A DNA stretch of 64,000 nt from Lentisphaeria bacterium (lineage in GTDB: Bacteria > Verrucomicrobiota > Lentisphaeria > Victivallales > Victivallaceae), in assembly GCA_017456285.1 (NCBI GenBank), contig JAFTJQ010000072.1, positions 1 to 64,000 of the forward strand. The letters are read 5' to 3'. The position numbers and the translations under genes were made by a program. Below, in pieces: positions 9,642 through 15,898 of the stretch (positions within the stretch are counted from its first letter, which is position 1; each line of letters opens with the position of its first letter). The notes beneath the pieces were generated by a model. The model saw only the letters and a list, made by a program, of their open reading frames with translations. It was not told the DNA's origin and searched no databases.

Positions 9642-11219
9642 TTAAATATCTTTGCATTGTTGGAAAGTTAAGTTGAATTTCTCCAGGTATTTACCCAGAC
9701 GGTCGGAGTCATTCAAGCTATTGCGTTTAATGCGTGATACAGCAAAAAGTTTTTTTCCTGCCTCTGCCCGACTGTTGCTTTTTCGACAAACTTCGACAAC
9801 TTTTCGTAATTGACAGAGGTCAAATTCATCGTATTCCGAGCGGTAATTGTCGCCGAGAAGTTTGGTTAATAACTCATCTGAAGCGGAAGTTCGGCGGTTT
9901 TTATTAGACCTGGTAATCTCATTTCTGACTATGACTTCATCAATTCGTCCACCTGAAGAGAGGGTTGCCATTCGGGTTATCATCGCATTCAAATCCCGGA
10001 AATTTCCTCGCCATGAGTTTGCCGGGTCAAGTGCAAAGTGCATAAATTCCGCTCTGGCTTCCTTATTGAAAGTTATGTGTTTGCCGCTTTTTTCGGCAAA
10101 GCATTTAAGTTCATATTCCAAATTTGGTTCAATATCTTCACGGCGATCGGCAAGTCCGGGCAACTGAAAGTCCCACAGGTTTATTCGTGCCAATAAATCG
10201 GCACGGAATTTGCCCTCGCTTACTGCTGTTTCCAAATCACGATTGGTACCGCAGATTAGTTCGAAGTTGCTTTCGCTCTCGACATCTGCACCCAATGGAA
10301 AAAATTTCTTTTCCTCAATGGCTCGAAGCAGCATTGCTTGTTCGTCAATCCCAAGTTCCCCGATTTCATCCAGAAAGAGGATTCCGCCGTCAGCTTTTTT
10401 CAACAACCCCGGGCGGTCGGCAAGTGCTCCGGTAAATGAGCCTTTTTTGTGACCGAAAAGCACACTCATTGCCTGATCCCCACGCAAAGTTGCGCAGTTG
10501 ACATTTACAAATTCGCCTTTAATTTGGTTGTTGAGTTTTTTGAGTTCGTAAATTCTTTTGGCAAGCTGGGATTTACCTGCACCGGTCGGTCCTGTAAGCA
10601 AAATCGGTTCAATTGAACGAATTGCTACTCGTTCAATAGTCTCAATAAGTTCGTTAAATTGCTTGTTTTTGGTGGCAATGCCCGACTTCAGAAAGTCCAA
10701 ATCATTTTCACGCTCAATGGCAAATCGCTTGGCAAGCATATCGTAACGGGAGAGGTCAAGGTCGATAATATTGTAGCTGCCCTCGGGACTTTCCCCCGGT
10801 TGGGTTTGAATGAGTTTGCCCGGCAGGTGGTGCGATTCATTAAGCAAAAAGAGGCAAATCTGTGCAACGTGAGTACCGGTCGTAATGTGGATATAATAGT
10901 TATCACTCTCACTTGAAAAGTCATGTCGCTGACTGAAGTCATACAATTTACTGTAAACTTCTTCAAAGTCCCATGGATTATCCATTTTTATTGCTTCGGG
11001 GATAATTTCGGTTGAGGGGGAACAAGTTTTTATGTCCTCGGAAATTTTTTTCATTAAACGCTCATAATCGGGCGGATAAATCATAAAATATCTGTCAAAA
11101 TGCAGATCTTCCTGCATGGCAAGTGCGACAGACGGACGCCATGTATTCCAGCGATTTAAGCCGTATTTGTGTCCTCGCTGGTCGAGAGTAGTTCCTAAAA
11201 TTGAAATTAAAATATTCAT
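9642..11219 (-). CDS. rtcR: RtcR: sigma-54-dependent activator of the RNA repair operon
   Basis: Transcription activator that responds to RNA damage and opens sigma-54 promoters of rtc operons. Seen, numbering from the ATG at 11219 (525 residues): N-terminal RtcR/CARF-like domain (ISILGTTLDQRG, RWNTWRPSVAL, HITTGTHVAQIC); AAA+ domain with Walker A GPTGAGKS (210-217), the sigma-54 contact loop GSFTGA (260-265, a variant of GAFTGA), and Walker B ILFLDEIGE (about 280-288); then a C-terminal helix-turn-helix region (about 460-520). An in-frame extension to 11480 would add 87 low-complexity residues across the sigma-54 promoter and is rejected. It is divergent from the Ro60-rtcB genes. The CARF domain is established for the family; the ligand here is unknown. 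Confidence 0.95.
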   Translation of the reverse strand: MNILISILGTTLDQRGHKYGLNRWNTWRPSVALAMQEDLHFDRYFMIYPPDYERLMKKISEDIKTCSPSTEIIPEAIKMDNPWDFEEVYSKLYDFSQRHDFSSESDNYYIHITTGTHVAQICLFLLNESHHLPGKLIQTQPGESPEGSYNIIDLDLSRYDMLAKRFAIERENDLDFLKSGIATKNKQFNELIETIERVAIRSIEPILLTGPTGAGKSQLAKRIYELKKLNNQIKGEFVNVNCATLRGDQAMSVLFGHKKGSFTGALADRPGLLKKADGGILFLDEIGELGIDEQAMLLRAIEEKKFFPLGADVESESNFELICGTNRDLETAVSEGKFRADLLARINLWDFQLPGLADRREDIEPNLEYELKCFAEKSGKHITFNKEARAEFMHFALDPANSWRGNFRDLNAMITRMATLSSGGRIDEVIVRNEITRSNKNRRTSASDELLTKLLGDNYRSEYDEFDLCQLRKVVEVCRKSNSRAEAGKKLFAVSRIKRNSLNDSDRLGKYLEKFNLTFQQCKDI

Positions 11220-11369
11220 TTTTCTATAATTCCCTATATTGATATATAAAATTTTATATAAAAATAATATAACATTAAAAATTGAAAATGCAAGCGTAAA
11301 AAAAATAAAAAAATTTTTTAAGTTCAAAAATGTAAAAAAATTAACTTTTTTTGAAGATTTTTTTAAAGT

Positions 11370-11385
11370 TGGCACGCTATTTGCT
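11370..11385 (+). promoter_or_regulatory. Sigma-54 promoter of the Ro60-rtcB operon
   Basis: TGGCACG (11370-11376), four bases, TTGCT (11381-11385) matches the -24/-12 consensus exactly and points right, toward the leader RNAs, Ro60 and rtcB. Transcription should start near 11396. Because rtcR lies divergently next to it, RtcR is the obvious activator; its binding sites should lie in the AT-rich 11220-11369 stretch, where I could not define a clear repeat. Confidence 0.9.
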
Positions 11386-11431
11386 AAATAAAAGACAGAA
11401 ATTGAAAAATTTTGAGTTGTTTGAAAAAAAG

Positions 11432-11504
11432 TGAGGTGAGATTCCGGGTTCAACGAAACTTTTAGTGAAGTCTTGCACATGTGACCGGAATAAATTATTC
11501 CTCA
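11432..11504 (+). ncRNA. Candidate Y-like RNA a in the operon leader
   Basis: TGAGG (11432-11436) pairs with CCTCA (11500-11504), and inside it ATTCCGG (11441-11447) pairs with CCGGAAT (11485-11491). The enclosed part carries GGGTTCAAC (11446-11454), like a tRNA T-loop. It begins about 35 bases after the expected sigma-54 start. In known Ro60 loci, small Y RNAs with paired ends and tRNA-like internal modules are encoded next to the Ro60 gene. The fold is by eye; a processed product is inferred. Confidence 0.4.
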
Positions 11505-11525
11505 TTTATCATATTGTAATTAAAT

Positions 11526-11709
11526 AACGAGGGTGCTGAAAATTGTTTCAACGTAATGTCGGCAACGAATGGGTTGTCTTTCGGTGGCAATAAGTCCGGT
11601 AATTCTATTTTACTTTTTATTGTCACGGTGCAATAATCTGTTGCTCAAACTCAAATTTATAGGGCAGCGGATTTGTGGTTTACACATATTTTTCCTTTAT
11701 TCCCTCGTT
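11526..11709 (+). ncRNA. Candidate Y-like RNA b in the operon leader
   Basis: AACGAGGG (11526-11533) and CCCTCGTT (11702-11709) form a perfect 8-bp closing stem around about 168 bases. The inside holds GTTTCAACG (11545-11553), again T-loop-like. There is no long open frame here. Ends that pair with each other and an internal effector part is the layout expected of a Y RNA; alternatives are an mRNA leader structure. Confidence 0.4.
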
Positions 11710-11723
11710 TGTTTTAGTTTTTA

Positions 11724-11806
11724 TGTATGGAGCGATAATTAGGGTTGCAACAAATGCAAAGGACTGAAAAATCCTTGTCGTTGCTGAATGAGTAATTCTC
11801 CATGCA
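11724..11806 (+). ncRNA. Candidate small structured RNA c in the operon leader
   Basis: TGTATGGAG (11724-11732) pairs with CTCCATGCA (11798-11806) with one G-U; AATTA/TAATT, GCAAC (11747-11751)/GTTGC (11780-11784) and AAGGA (11759-11763)/TCCTT (11772-11776) nest inside. The result is a continuous, interrupted hairpin of 83 bases. It lacks an open frame and follows RNA b by 14 bases. Confidence 0.4.
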
Positions 11807-11823
11807 TTATTTTGAATAAATGG

Positions 11824-11935
11824 TAATAGAGGTGCATTTGTTTGGTTCAACAGATCCATGGCCTATGCTCTCCCCAAGGCGATCGGGTTGTATCGATTAA
11901 TTAAGGAGAGGCAAACAATAATTATTCCTCTATTA
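11824..11935 (+). ncRNA. Candidate Y-like RNA d in the operon leader
   Basis: TAATAGAGG (11824-11832) and CCTCTATTA (11927-11935) form a perfect 9-bp end-to-end stem. A second stem TTGTTTG (about 11838-11844) / CAAACAA (11912-11918) and a third CTCTCC / GGAGAG lie inside, with GGTTCAAC (11844-11851) in the internal part. A stem formed by both ends followed by an internal module is the Y RNA design. It lies 54 bases before the Ro60 start codon. Confidence 0.45.
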
Positions 11936-11989: not shown

Positions 11990-13570
11990 ATGAAAAATAT
12001 TATCAGTGAATTGGAAAATATTAGGAATTATAAAGATGCTGATACCTTGAACCATGAAAATTTTCCGGCATGGACAATGAGTGATTCCATGCGTTTAGAG
12101 CAGTTGGCAATGACCGGATCGCTCGGTAATAGTTTTTACGTATCAAAGTCAGCACTAATTGCCGATGCACTTGAGTTATTGGAACGTGCTGATGCCGAAG
12201 AATTGGCACGAGTTATTGTTCGCGGCAGAAATGAGGGTTTTATCCGTACATTTCCTTTGCTTGGATTGGTGGTGTTATCCAAGAAATCACCGCAGCTTTT
12301 TCAGCGAACTTTTCCCAAGGTTGTATTGACGGGAAATGATTTGGAAGACTTTATCTCCATGACTCGTCAAATGCGTGGATTCGGTCGCTCAATTAAGCGT
12401 GCTATCCACAGTTATTTGCGTGAATCGGTAACTCCGTATTATGCGATGAAGTATCGTCGTCAAATAGCTGATGCAATTCGTATCAGCCGTTTTGATGGTA
12501 ATGATCCGCTTTATGCTTACGCTCTCGGTGCTTATTCGAGAGTAAAAGGGCTTGACGCAAATAAAATCAAGGAAGTTTATTCGGCGTATAGTGAATTTGA
12601 GGCTCGTAAAACGTTTCTGGAATTGCTTGAAGCAGGCAAAATGGTTGAAGCTGCTAATGTTTTGGTGAAAAATCGCTTGGATGTCGATAGTTTGAGTGCT
12701 TATTATCACAAGTTTGATAAAATCATTTGGACTGCCGTTGCGGAAATTACGCCCGTTATGCGTTTTTTGAAATATTTGGCAAAATTCGCCCGTGAGGGGG
12801 TTGATGTCAGAAAATTTGCAATTAAAAAATTGACGGTTGATTCACTCAAGGCGGCTAAAGTTTTTCCGTTCCGATTGTATTCTGCTTATGAGGCAATTCC
12901 GAGCAATTTGGAATTTTCCCAAAGTGATACATTGTGGGGGAAATTGACAAACTTCACATTCGATGTTGAAAATAAATCTCAAACAATTGAAGATATTTTG
13001 GAAAATGTATTGGATGATTATACACTTGAGTATGATTGGGAAGAATTTAATGATTACAGCTGGGTGATTGCTCCTGATATGTCAGGTTCAATGATGAGCC
13101 GAATTGCCGGTAGCAAATTGACTTTTTCAGAAGTCAGCGGCATGTTTACAGGTTTTTTCTCCAAAGGACTTAATCAGGTACGGATTTTGCCGTGGAATAC
13201 AATGGTTTTGCCGTATGGCATTGAGAAACACGCATCGGTAATTGAACAAATTGAGTACCTTCAAAACAGTGTCTGCGGTGGAACTTATATGGAAGTTGCA
13301 GTTGATTATATGCTTAAAAATCGAATCAAAACTGATTATACAATTTTTATTACCGACTCCATGGAATACGGACAAGGCTGGCTCGCCTCATGGAAGCAAT
13401 ATCGCCGTTTCAATCCGAATGCCAAAGCATTTTTGTTGAGGTTGGATTGTTATAGCACTCAGCCGATGTCGGATGAAGATGCGAAAAAAAACGGTATTTA
13501 TCAAATTTTCGGTTGGAATGATAATGTTATTGAATATATTAGGTATGTGATTAAACAAAATAAGAAATAG
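11990..13570 (+). CDS. rsr: Ro60/Rsr-like TROVE domain protein
   Basis: Ring-shaped RNA-binding protein of the Ro60 family, which binds Y RNAs and misfolded or damaged RNA and in bacteria works with nucleases during stress. Seen: an N-terminal TROVE domain of helical repeats (about residues 20-330, with the RGFGRSIKRAIHSYL and YYAMKYRRQIADAIR segments) and a C-terminal von Willebrand A domain with an intact MIDAS motif D363-x-S365-x-S367 (APDMSGSMM). Its 526 residues match bacterial Rsr. It is the first protein gene after the sigma-54 promoter and about 600 bases of structured leader. In enterobacteria rsr, yrlA and rtcBA also form an RtcR-controlled unit, which supports the call. Confidence 0.93.
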   Translation: MKNIISELENIRNYKDADTLNHENFPAWTMSDSMRLEQLAMTGSLGNSFYVSKSALIADALELLERADAEELARVIVRGRNEGFIRTFPLLGLVVLSKKSPQLFQRTFPKVVLTGNDLEDFISMTRQMRGFGRSIKRAIHSYLRESVTPYYAMKYRRQIADAIRISRFDGNDPLYAYALGAYSRVKGLDANKIKEVYSAYSEFEARKTFLELLEAGKMVEAANVLVKNRLDVDSLSAYYHKFDKIIWTAVAEITPVMRFLKYLAKFAREGVDVRKFAIKKLTVDSLKAAKVFPFRLYSAYEAIPSNLEFSQSDTLWGKLTNFTFDVENKSQTIEDILENVLDDYTLEYDWEEFNDYSWVIAPDMSGSMMSRIAGSKLTFSEVSGMFTGFFSKGLNQVRILPWNTMVLPYGIEKHASVIEQIEYLQNSVCGGTYMEVAVDYMLKNRIKTDYTIFITDSMEYGQGWLASWKQYRRFNPNAKAFLLRLDCYSTQPMSDEDAKKNGIYQIFGWNDNVIEYIRYVIKQNKK

Positions 13571-13641
13571 TTAAAGAATTTATAGAGTATTAAAATTTGA
13601 AAATACAAGCGTAAAAAATAAAAAACGAAAGGATGTTGATT

Positions 13642-14100
13642 ATGCTTATTACATTGGCTCAAGCCCTCAAAGAAAAAAATCGTATCGCCGGTGAAATCCG
13701 TGATTTGTGGAACTTGGTACAGAGTGAAAATGCGTGCTGGGAAACTCACAGCCGCAGTATTAACATTGCTGAAACAATGCAGACCATTCACCTCTATACC
13801 GAAAAACTTATTGAATTGAAAACCAAAATCGGTAAAGCTAATGAGGGCAATTTGGCAAATATGTATGCTTTGGAAGAGTACAAGAGTCAAATTAGTTGTT
13901 ACGGCCATATCGATACCGCAGAAGAGGTACGTTATTTGGGCGAAAATGAAGACCGCATGTTGACCAAAACTTGTGTAATCAAAAATAGCGATGTGCTTAA
14001 ATTGCAAAAGCAGTTGCAGATTAAATGCAACCACCTTCAAGATGAACTTGATGTATATAATGCAACTCACAAAATTGAGTTTGATACTCCGTTGAAGTGA
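13642..14100 (+). CDS. DIP1984/DUF6847-like small helical protein
   Basis: A protein of 152 residues, predicted mostly helical (ALKEKNRIAGEIRDLWNLVQ at the start; a KLIELKTKIGKAN central helix; a basic LKLQKQLQIKCNHLQ helix near the end). Its pattern resembles the DIP1984 (septicolysin-like) family of unknown function; recognition is from memory and moderate. The start at 13642 is preferred over the ATG at 13633, because GAAAGG ends one base before 13633 but is well spaced for 13642. It lies between the Ro60 and rtcB genes in the same direction, so it is probably co-expressed under RtcR and may have a role in RNA handling; this is inference. Confidence 0.7.
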   Translation: MLITLAQALKEKNRIAGEIRDLWNLVQSENACWETHSRSINIAETMQTIHLYTEKLIELKTKIGKANEGNLANMYALEEYKSQISCYGHIDTAEEVRYLGENEDRMLTKTCVIKNSDVLKLQKQLQIKCNHLQDELDVYNATHKIEFDTPLK

Positions 14101-14118
14101 TTGCATTATACAAAAAGT

Positions 14119-14141
14119 CAAACTGACATTTTTTGTCAGTT
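14119..14141 (+). terminator. Hairpin after the DIP1984-like gene
   Basis: AACTGACA (14121-14128) and TGTCAGTT (14134-14141) pair around a T-rich loop. No T-run follows, so it is more likely an mRNA-stabilising or processing hairpin, or a weak terminator, between this gene and rtcB. Confidence 0.35.
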
Positions 14142-14152
14142 CGGCTCGGAGT

Positions 14153-14289
14153 AAACTGCTATTCCGCCATTCCTAAGGGAGATAGATGTTGATACGAATG
14201 CGATCCTGCAATTAAAATTTAAGGGTTAAGGACTTAAGAATCAATCATTACTTCTCAAAACTTAAAACTTTTTTTAGGAATGGCAGTTT
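14153..14289 (+). ncRNA. Candidate structured RNA e between the DIP1984-like gene and rtcB
   Basis: GCCATTCCTAA (14166-14176) pairs perfectly with TTAGGAATGGC (14274-14284), and AAACT (14153-14157) pairs with AGTTT (14285-14289) past an asymmetric bulge. The closed unit of about 137 bases has no open frame. A bulged long stem joining both ends is reminiscent of the Ro60-binding stem of Y RNAs. Alternatively it could regulate rtcB mRNA. Confidence 0.45.
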
Positions 14290-14295
14290 CTCCCA

Positions 14296-14343
14296 TCGGG
14301 TGGGCGGTTGCCGTTGGAATGACGGAAATTTCCACCCCCCCGA
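14296..14343. repeat. Hairpin with GGAATGAC word upstream of rtcB
   Basis: GGGTGG (14298-14303) and CCACCC (14332-14337) form an outer stem with CCGT/ACGG (14311-14325) inside; GGAATGAC in the loop matches the word in the palindrome at 76-111. This may be a dispersed repeat rather than part of the RNA repair system. Confidence 0.4.
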
Positions 14344-14376
14344 GGCTCTTTTAATTATTAAGAGAAAGGATAAAAA

Positions 14377-15576
14377 ATGGAAATTATAAAAAGTGATGGA
14401 CTCTCCATCCCAATAAAAAGTTGGTGTCGGGATATTGAAGCAGTCGCAATGGCACAAGCAGAAAATCTTGCCCGTCATGTCGCATTGCGTCATCATGTGG
14501 CACTTATGCCTGATTGTCATTGCGGTATCGGTATGCCGATCGGCGGAGTGATTGCCGCCAAAGATGCAGTTATCCCTGCCGCTGTCGGAGTTGATATCGG
14601 GTGCGGTATGATTGCAGTTGAAACTGATGTCGATGCGGATAAACTTGCCGAAATGCGTTTCCGTCGGGAAATTCATTCACGGATAAAGGAGTTTATTCCG
14701 CTCGGCGAAGGACAACCGCACAAATCGGCACAAACTTGGGAGGGTTTTGAAGAGTATTTAGATGCGAAAGACTCAAATTCAGAACTCATCACCAAACTTG
14801 ACCGTCACAATCTCGGAACTCTCGGCGGCGGAAATCATTTTATCGAAATTCAGAAAAGTGATTCCGACAAGGTTTGGATAATGATTCACTCGGGAAGCAG
14901 AAATCTCGGTAAAAGGATTGAAGAGCTTTATCAGCAAAAAGCAATGCAACTTTGTGAGAGATTTTATACGCCGCTTGCGAATAGCGATTTGGCATTTTTG
15001 CCGATTCAGGAAAAAGAGGGGCATGATTATTTCCGAGATATGAAATTTGCGTTGAAATACGCCTTTGAAAATCGTCAGCGAATGATGAGAGTTTGCAAAG
15101 AGGTTTTAGCGGAATTTATCCCGGAAGTCAATTTCCTGCGTGAAGTAAATATTCACCATAATTATGCCGCATTTGAGGAGCATTTCGGCGAAACTTTGTG
15201 CATTCACCGCAAGGGTGCAACCAGTGCTAAACTCGACGAAATCGGTATTATCCCCGGTTCAATGGGGACGGCAAGTTATATTGTGCGAGGTTTGGGTAAT
15301 CGGGATAGTTTTATGAGTTGTTCGCATGGAGCAGGTCGCAAAATGAGCCGTACCGCTGCTTGTAATAACTTGACGGTTGCCGAATGCGATGAGGCGATGC
15401 ATGGAATTGTTTGTGATCGCTGGCAGACAGTACGCCGTTACGGAAAGCATAAGAAAACAATTGATTTATCTGAAGCACCGCAGGCTTATAAGGATATTGA
15501 GGAGGTCATAACCGCCGAAAGCGATTTGGTTACTCCTTTAGTCCGTTTAACTCCGTTGGCGGTAATTAAAGGCTGA
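14377..15576 (+). CDS. rtcB: RNA ligase RtcB (3'-phosphate/2',3'-cyclic phosphate with 5'-OH)
   Basis: GTP- and Mn-dependent ligase that rejoins RNA ends left by ribotoxins and by tRNA cleavage. Seen: PDCHCGIGMPIGG (from residue 45), GVDIGCGM (D73, C76), GGGNHFIEI, HSGSRNLG, IPGSMGTASYIVRG and the guanylylated histidine H317 in SCSHGAGRKMSR. Length 399 residues fits the shorter bacterial RtcB form. GAGAAAGGA precedes the ATG. No rtcA (RNA 3'-phosphate cyclase) or archease gene is in the window. It is third in the Ro60-DIP1984-rtcB run and is followed 15 bases later by a tRNA-like RNA. Confidence 0.96.
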   Translation: MEIIKSDGLSIPIKSWCRDIEAVAMAQAENLARHVALRHHVALMPDCHCGIGMPIGGVIAAKDAVIPAAVGVDIGCGMIAVETDVDADKLAEMRFRREIHSRIKEFIPLGEGQPHKSAQTWEGFEEYLDAKDSNSELITKLDRHNLGTLGGGNHFIEIQKSDSDKVWIMIHSGSRNLGKRIEELYQQKAMQLCERFYTPLANSDLAFLPIQEKEGHDYFRDMKFALKYAFENRQRMMRVCKEVLAEFIPEVNFLREVNIHHNYAAFEEHFGETLCIHRKGATSAKLDEIGIIPGSMGTASYIVRGLGNRDSFMSCSHGAGRKMSRTAACNNLTVAECDEAMHGIVCDRWQTVRRYGKHKKTIDLSEAPQAYKDIEEVITAESDLVTPLVRLTPLAVIKG

Positions 15577-15591
15577 TATAAAAAATACATC

Positions 15592-15725
15592 ATCGGGGTA
15601 GCTCAATGGTAGAGCAGAGAAAGAGCGAGTGATCGTCGCTGAAAACGTATGGGTGAAGCGTTTTTCGGTGCAGGGATTTTCCGTCATCAGCGTCTCGTAT
15701 GTGGGTTCGACTCCCACCCCCGATG
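15592..15725 (+). ncRNA. tRNA-like RNA with a long insert in place of the anticodon loop
   Basis: Three tRNA arms are textbook: acceptor ATCGGGG (15592-15598) / CCCCGAT (15718-15724); D arm GCTC-AATGGTA-GAGC (15601-15615) after TA at 15599-15600; T arm GTGGG-TTCGACT-CCCAC (15701-15717). In the anticodon position GAGA (15617-15620) pairs with TCTC (15693-15696), but instead of 7 bases the loop holds about 70, with further stems CGCTGA (15637-15642) / TCAGCG (15687-15692) and AAAACG / CGTTTT (15642-15664). No CCA is encoded; CCCG and T6 follow. It lies 15 bases after rtcB. YrlA-type Y RNAs are known to mimic tRNA, so a tRNA-mimic Y RNA is the best guess; a tRNA with an intron is the rival. Confidence 0.65.
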
Positions 15726-15898
15726 CCCGATTTTTTAATTAAAATTAATTCGCCGCGTGATAACAATTTTATTTATTATCAAGCGGCTGCATTTTTTTAT
15801 TTTTAAAATATTTCAGAATGATTAGTTGATTTTGTGATAAGTTATGGTATATTTCATTCCACGCAGAAAATAATAATCAATAATAAAAAGAGTAGGGG

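Follow-up and report, generated by a model that had tools for sequence, protein, structure and literature searches.

A tRNA-like RNA with a branched insert in place of the anticodon arm: an apparently new small RNA family of Lentisphaeria, found in part behind rtcB in predicted RNA-repair operons

The Ro60-rtcB operon

The window is the whole stretch of 64 kb of DNA that was analysed; it comes from a 2.42-Mb draft genome that is 98% complete. RtcR, the sigma-54 activator of RNA repair, is encoded at 9642-11222 on the minus strand, divergently to the operon described here (NCBIfam RtcR equivalog: 732.7 bits, cut-off 650). Its start lies near 11222 and the Pfam match begins at 11219. A sigma-54 promoter, TGGCACGCTATTTGCT, is predicted at 11370-11385 (+) and is the sole zero-mismatch match in the window. 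It is separated by a leader of about 600 nt from the gene of Ro60 (Rsr-like, TROVE plus vWA; 11990-13570, +). Ro60 is recognized by Pfam vWA_Ro60 (E=4e-9) and by comparison with the solved Ro60 and Rsr structures (E=7e-14 and 2e-8, respectively); its closest publicly titled relatives come from metagenome bins of Lentisphaerae, of which several are of ruminant origin. The next gene is an ORF of 155 aa (13633-14100, +) with a weak DIP1984-family similarity that is below the cut-off (E=0.004). It is followed by rtcB, encoding the RNA ligase (14377-15576, +; Pfam RtcB, E=6e-108). The intergenic segment 5′ of rtcB (14100-14376) has an unusually stable predicted fold (z -3.5) that includes a long stem.

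The tRNA-like RNA lies 15 nt behind the stop codon of rtcB. Downstream of the RNA, a terminator-like hairpin and its T run (15752-15797, +) are predicted from fold and sequence to close the operon. Since RtcR, the sigma-54 site, Ro60 and rtcB precede the RNA and the terminator-like hairpin follows it, it appears to be the final gene of an RtcR-controlled Ro60-rtcB RNA-repair operon. The preliminary description, made from the sequence alone, had rightly placed it directly after rtcB; Ro60 is encoded in the same operon.

Extent and parts of the tRNA-like RNA

The segment 15592-15725 (+) matches the Rfam tRNA model over the full length (45.2 bits, cut-off 29; E=1.2e-7). In this alignment, the acceptor, D and T arms are all present in the normal tRNA order, and the single insertion, of 72 nt, is found between the two strands of the anticodon stem. 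Canonical arms in tRNA order and a structured insert in the anticodon arm had both been proposed beforehand, and both are borne out. ARAGORN finds nothing in the 64-kb window, and the Rfam fast filters also miss this RNA. Searches of the 64-kb window for TAGCTCA..GG.AGAGC (D arm) and GGTTCGANTCY (T arm) give one hit apiece, both within the tRNA-like RNA.

The whole RNA is 138 nt long (15591-15728, +; all parts given below are on the same strand) and is made of an 8-bp acceptor, a D arm, a branched insert, a T arm and a CCC tail. The bounds first proposed, 15592-15725, are those of the Rfam match but leave out C15591, where the acceptor starts, and the tail, which runs to 15728. The 5′ strand of the acceptor stem (CATCGGGG, 15591-15598) pairs and covaries with 15718-15725; the 3′ strand, CCCCGATG, and the tail CCC together occupy 15718-15728. 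The terminal pair of the acceptor, C15591-G15725, is kept as C-G in all eight copies of the RNA that are described below. The D arm (GCTC-AATGGTA-GAGC, 15601-15615), placed by the Rfam tRNA alignment, is 100% paired in the eight copies. The T arm (GTGGG-TTCGACT-CCCAC, 15701-15717) is supported by the Rfam tRNA alignment and by the alignment of the eight copies.

All eight copies have a 3′ end of GCCC instead of NCCA. In the window, the tail is CCC (15726-15728) and CCA is not encoded, whereas CCA is encoded by all 43 ordinary tRNAs found in the same genome. GCCCA is found in five of eight homologues and, with an 8-bp acceptor, is readable as C plus CCA. If a 5-bp anticodon stem is assumed, position 33 is G, G, G, G, C, G, A and G in the eight copies. 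An anticodon loop with U33, either direct or after intron removal, is found in none of them (0/8). Judged by its sequence, the RNA is without an anticodon loop and hence without the means to decode codons. An ordinary decoding tRNA was rejected on account of the absent U33 (8/8) and of the non-CCA end.

Single-sequence folding of the window copy is unremarkable (z -0.93), so the evidence for the structure of the insert is comparative and rests on the homologues.

Homologues and distribution

A first covariance model (R1) was built from the window copy and the copy of genome G072 (locus L010). It found six more copies within the taxonomic order to which these two genomes belong. The total is eight copies: that of the window and seven homologues in six other genomes, all of this order. 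A second model (R2) describes the full structure. It scores the eight copies at 73-157 bits; they are carried by 7 of the 198 genomes of the class, in three genera, one genome having two (G078a and G078b). R2 found no further copy among the 198 genomes of the class or in a phylum-wide set of 388. Weak matches of R1 or R2 across the phylum (23-60 bits) were dropped as being of ordinary-tRNA length; among the matches listed, the lesser ones of the phylum search all have this length. A BLAST match in G017 falls inside a protein gene and was set aside as chance. No model match was found in 26 viral contigs bearing the P3 motif (defined below), and a plasmid search gave no match. The RNA is rare and patchy, being found in just seven genomes of three genera.

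Structure of the insert

The layout of the insert is constant across the eight copies: P1, P2, then a three-way junction with two hairpins, P3 and P4. P1 is the anticodon stem, of 4 bp in the eight-copy alignment; in the window its 5′ strand GAGA (15617-15620) pairs with TCTC (15693-15696). A linker, AAGAGC opposite UGCG, precedes P2, whose 5′ strand GAGTGAT, with a bulged G (15627-15633), pairs with GTCATC (15683-15688). The feet of the three-way junction are conserved (GUC ... GCA). P3 (15635-15672 in the window, including these feet) has 7-10 bp and a conserved loop, UAUGGGUNAAG, replaced by CAUUUGGGUNAG in two copies; the window loop (15648-15658) is UAUGGGUGAAG. P4 is a small GG...CC hairpin (GGG-ATTT-TCC, 15673-15682), about 35 nt longer in the G093 homologue. 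Of the two insert stems given in the preliminary description, AAAACG/CGTTTT is the top of P3; CGCTGA/TCAGCG was dropped, the homologues placing its strands in different helices (P3 versus P2 plus linker).

Standard pairs occupy 94% of the 301 pair cells of the eight copies. In an alignment fitted to an author-written structure, both sides change in 21 of 38 pairs, compared with 9.5±1.9 in shuffles and 3-8 when the partners are slid. Doubly changed pairs are 3/4 in P1, 3/6 in P2 (87.5% paired) and 8/9 in P3. From an unfitted MAFFT alignment, RNAalifold recovers the D, P1, P3, P4 and T helices and part of the acceptor, with 13 doubly changed pairs. When the tRNA arms are fixed, thermodynamic folding of individual copies gives the complete insert for G078a, G112, G093 and G068 and part of it for G072, G035 and G078b; for the window copy it does not give the insert, and the minimum-energy fold of that copy departs from the consensus. 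Pairing of the GGG of the P3 loop with the conserved CCC tail is possible; both sides are invariant, so that it is outside the reach of covariation.

On this comparative evidence, both the tRNA body (8-bp acceptor, D arm, T arm) and the three-way-junction domain are under selection. A P1-P2-P3-P4 insert that is conserved and covaries is what would be expected of a family of insert-bearing tRNA-like RNAs, and the eight copies show it. These RNAs form a small family that is well supported as such and apparently new: no such RNA was found to be described in the literature searched (open-access; many journals lie outside it).

The same data bear on the suggestion, raised in the preliminary description, of a tRNA gene interrupted by a short intron, with RtcB as the ligase of its exons. 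The rtcB gene adjoins the tRNA-like RNA, and the draft genome gave no tRNA of four anticodon families (Ile-GAU, Ala-UGC, Ser-GCU and Arg-UCU). Draft metagenome bins often lack some tRNAs, and these four are taken as assembly gaps. Removal of an intron never forms U33 in the eight copies, the insert and its stems are conserved by covariation, no bulge-helix-bulge is visible by eye, the tail differs from that of all 43 tRNAs of the genome, and RtcB was not found in two copy-bearing genomes (G035 and G078). A spliced tRNA is hardly credible. Group I and group II introns were also considered and rejected: no family match was found in the window, and the insert has 72 nt.

Genomic context of the other copies

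Four of the eight copies have rtcB just upstream. In G072, the RNA is encoded downstream of rtcB in a Ro60-rtcB operon, at the same place as in the window. In G112, it is found 23 nt 3′ of rtcB; a sigma-54-like site and a tRNA-Ile(UAU) gene lie 5′ of rtcB, RtcR is divergent, and Ro60 is absent from the contiguous sequence between RtcR and rtcB. In G072 and G068, the distance from rtcB is a few hundred nt and another tRNA-like RNA intervenes. This second RNA has a long anticodon arm in G068 (L059:1868-1952, +) and is reduced to an acceptor/T minihelix in G072 (L010:3921-3965, -). From these gene arrangements, the tRNA-like RNA is encoded in an RtcR/sigma-54 RNA-repair operon in at least two genomes.

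A tRNA-Ile(UAU) gene is unusual in bacteria. Such a gene lies directly 5′ of rtcB in G072 (L010:5353-5428, -), G068 (L059:154-229, +) and G112 (L056:2879-2954, -); the operons therefore appear to handle tRNAs. At another locus, a normal-sized tRNA-like gene, called Leu-CAA and without a long variable arm, is found just 5′ of Ro60 (L018:2025-2099, +).

The other four copies, one each in G035 and G093 and two in G078, lie away from rtcB. Searches of the G035 and G078 draft genomes gave no RtcB and no RtcR; G093 has both, on other contigs. Ro60 was not found in these three draft genomes. Absence of Ro60 rests on a protein search for one family, plus contiguous sequence for G112; PF05731 (TROVE) is not used as evidence of absence because it finds none of these Ro60 proteins, that of the window included. 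Conversely, the tRNA-like RNA is missing from some RtcB or Ro60 loci (G017, G073). With half of the copies away from rtcB, and two copy-bearing genomes in which no RtcB or RtcR was detected, the association with RNA repair is real but not a fixed one.

In G072, G068 and G035, the tRNA-like RNA or its cluster is preceded by a palindrome, AGTGGAC-N7-GTCCACTTG, and then TATATTA. It is probably the operator of some regulator, and its position suggests that these three copies are controlled by a regulator other than RtcR. The same palindrome and TATATTA also precede unrelated small genes; the sites, all in one genus, include L010:4075-4097, L058:7374-7396, L059:1737-1759 and L103.

These contexts raise the alternative of a regulatory RNA unrelated to repair, which would often travel with rtcB and would keep its tRNA body for processing and stability only. 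It would account for the orphan copies in varied contexts, two of them in a single genome, and for a promoter-like element shared with other small genes. Against it are the four copies placed just downstream of rtcB across two families, and in two of these the gaps of 15 and 23 nt, too short for a promoter of its own outside rtcB. This alternative is on balance somewhat unlikely.

Leader hairpins and Ro60

In this group, the leaders of Ro60 operons carry tandem hairpins (NNGAGGUG ... GG-UUUCAAC ... UUAUUCCUCNN; 3′ side of the stem: AUUCCUC). A covariance model of these hairpins (R3) finds three of them in the window leader, all on the plus strand: 11431-11505 (52.8 bits), 11727-11803 (49.9 bits) and 11827-11932 (long loop; 34.1 bits). 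A possible degenerate hairpin with GUUUCAAC (11529-11611, +) was found by regular expression only and is missed by R3. The hairpins covary, with 10 of 13 pairs doubly changed in an eleven-sequence alignment, and are unmatched by Rfam. R3 has 33 matches at E<=0.05, every one in a Ro60-bearing locus, and none in the loci of G112, G068, G078, G035, G093 and G017. Separately, one leader unit with a T arm and then a closed acceptor-like hairpin is a YrlA-like permuted tRNA mimic (L020:4960-5056, L021:9849-9946, L022:315-411, L024:9849-9946).

The leader hairpins are in the same operon as the tRNA-like RNA but differ from it: they are without tRNA ends, have their own NNGAGGUG...UUUCAAC...AUUCCUC stem, and track Ro60, not the tRNA-like RNA. 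This distribution makes them the natural candidates for Y RNAs that bind Ro60 in Lentisphaerae and Kiritimatiellae, and better candidates for the Ro60 tether than the tRNA-like RNA.

This weighs on the Y RNA reading of the preliminary description, in which the insert would bind Ro60 and the tRNA body an effector, as an in-line version of the permuted YrlA. Ro60 is encoded in the same operon as the RNA in the window and in G072, and the Ro60 stem of YrlA appears likewise to be at the anticodon position of a tRNA mimic (Rfam consensus; PMC8394870). Against this, R3 hairpins were found at Ro60 loci and at none of the Ro60-less loci examined, and the tRNA-like RNA scores no higher than 4.5 bits with R3 at any position, even when filters are off. 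Rfam YrlA gives 18.2 bits, at an offset place, for a cut-off of 69. The co-occurrence with Ro60 expected of a Y RNA does not extend to the copies of G035, G078 and G093 or to the G112 locus (draft genomes). The published motif GNCGAAN0-1G is present only in G072 among the copies. A Y RNA in this position is quite improbable; by these comparisons, the tRNA-like RNA is not the Ro60 tether.

Comparison with known RNA classes

The well-described bacterial tRNA mimics are of two kinds, tmRNA and YrlA. The features of YrlA were compared through the Rfam consensus (RF02553) and a review of its modules (PMC8394870). The tRNA-like RNA resembles YrlA by its tRNA elbow (D and T arms), by a non-tRNA helix at the anticodon position and by a Ro60/RtcB/RtcR neighbourhood. 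YrlA is circularly permuted, its acceptor is closed and the RNA ends lie in the Ro60 stem, whereas the tRNA-like RNA has the normal order, free acceptor ends and a closed three-way-junction insert, and is also found without Ro60. It shares with tmRNA (RF00023) a tRNA acceptor and T arm and a large insert at the site of the anticodon arm, and differs from it by a full D arm, a length of 138 nt and the lack of CCA; neither a tag reading frame nor pseudoknots were seen. The tmRNA model was rejected, only a 17-nt piece of the T arm being matched (15.1 bits, cut-off 47). Separate tmRNA genes are found in four of the copy-bearing genomes. Compared with tRNA (RF00005), intron-bearing ones included, the acceptor, D and T arms and their order are the same; the differences are the 8-bp acceptor, the lack of an anticodon loop and of U33, the conserved insert and the GCCC end.

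Proposed role

The tentative explanation preferred here, plausible though short of an even chance, is that of a noncoding RNA built on a tRNA chassis, encoded in RNA-repair operons and acting as an adaptor or decoy for tRNA-handling enzymes in a response to tRNA damage. RtcR, which is activated by tRNA fragments with a 2′,3′-cyclic phosphate (PMC7790460), would sense broken tRNAs and the operon transcript would be made. The tRNA-like RNA would be excised from it by the ordinary tRNA-processing enzymes, so that the tRNA body would serve as maturation signal and as handle for tRNA-binding proteins. The P2/P3/P4 domain would be the specific part. Anticodon nucleases, PNPase or RtcB would be offered a tRNA elbow and acceptor that come with no anticodon loop to cleave, and P3 would bind a partner. 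A decoy role has already been proposed for the tRNA-like domain of YrlA (PMC7790460).

The RNA could instead be a substrate or a sensor, cut by a nuclease (e.g. in the P3 loop) and resealed by RtcB, or releasing a 5′ fragment that signals to RtcR. The ligands of RtcR are 5′ tRNA fragments (PMC7790460), the P3 loop is conserved, and RtcB of E. coli is reported to act on tmRNA, which is also tRNA-like with a large insert (PMC9650030); because of this last report, rivals of this kind were kept. Two genomes nevertheless retain the RNA while RtcB and RtcR were not found in them, and a cleavage site is not in evidence, which leaves this reading unlikely.

In its broader form, the adaptor or decoy explanation describes a new class of in-line tRNA-derived RNA. 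The anticodon arm would have been replaced by a branched protein- or RNA-binding domain, and the RNA would be a dedicated component of tRNA repair (cofactor, guide or decoy for RtcB or anticodon nucleases), distinct from the Ro60 Y RNAs. This is put forward with rather less than even confidence. If true, it would add a third arrangement of bacterial tRNA mimic: the tRNA body would stay intact and in normal order, with a different domain in the place of the decoding arm. Its position immediately after the ligase gene, in operons under RtcR control, would make the RNA a handle on what the RtcB/Ro60 operons act on and on why tRNA-like RNAs are found there. The tRNA-Ile(UAU) gene and the further tRNA-like RNA in the operons of relatives suggest that tRNA replacement, decoying or both may be part of the response.
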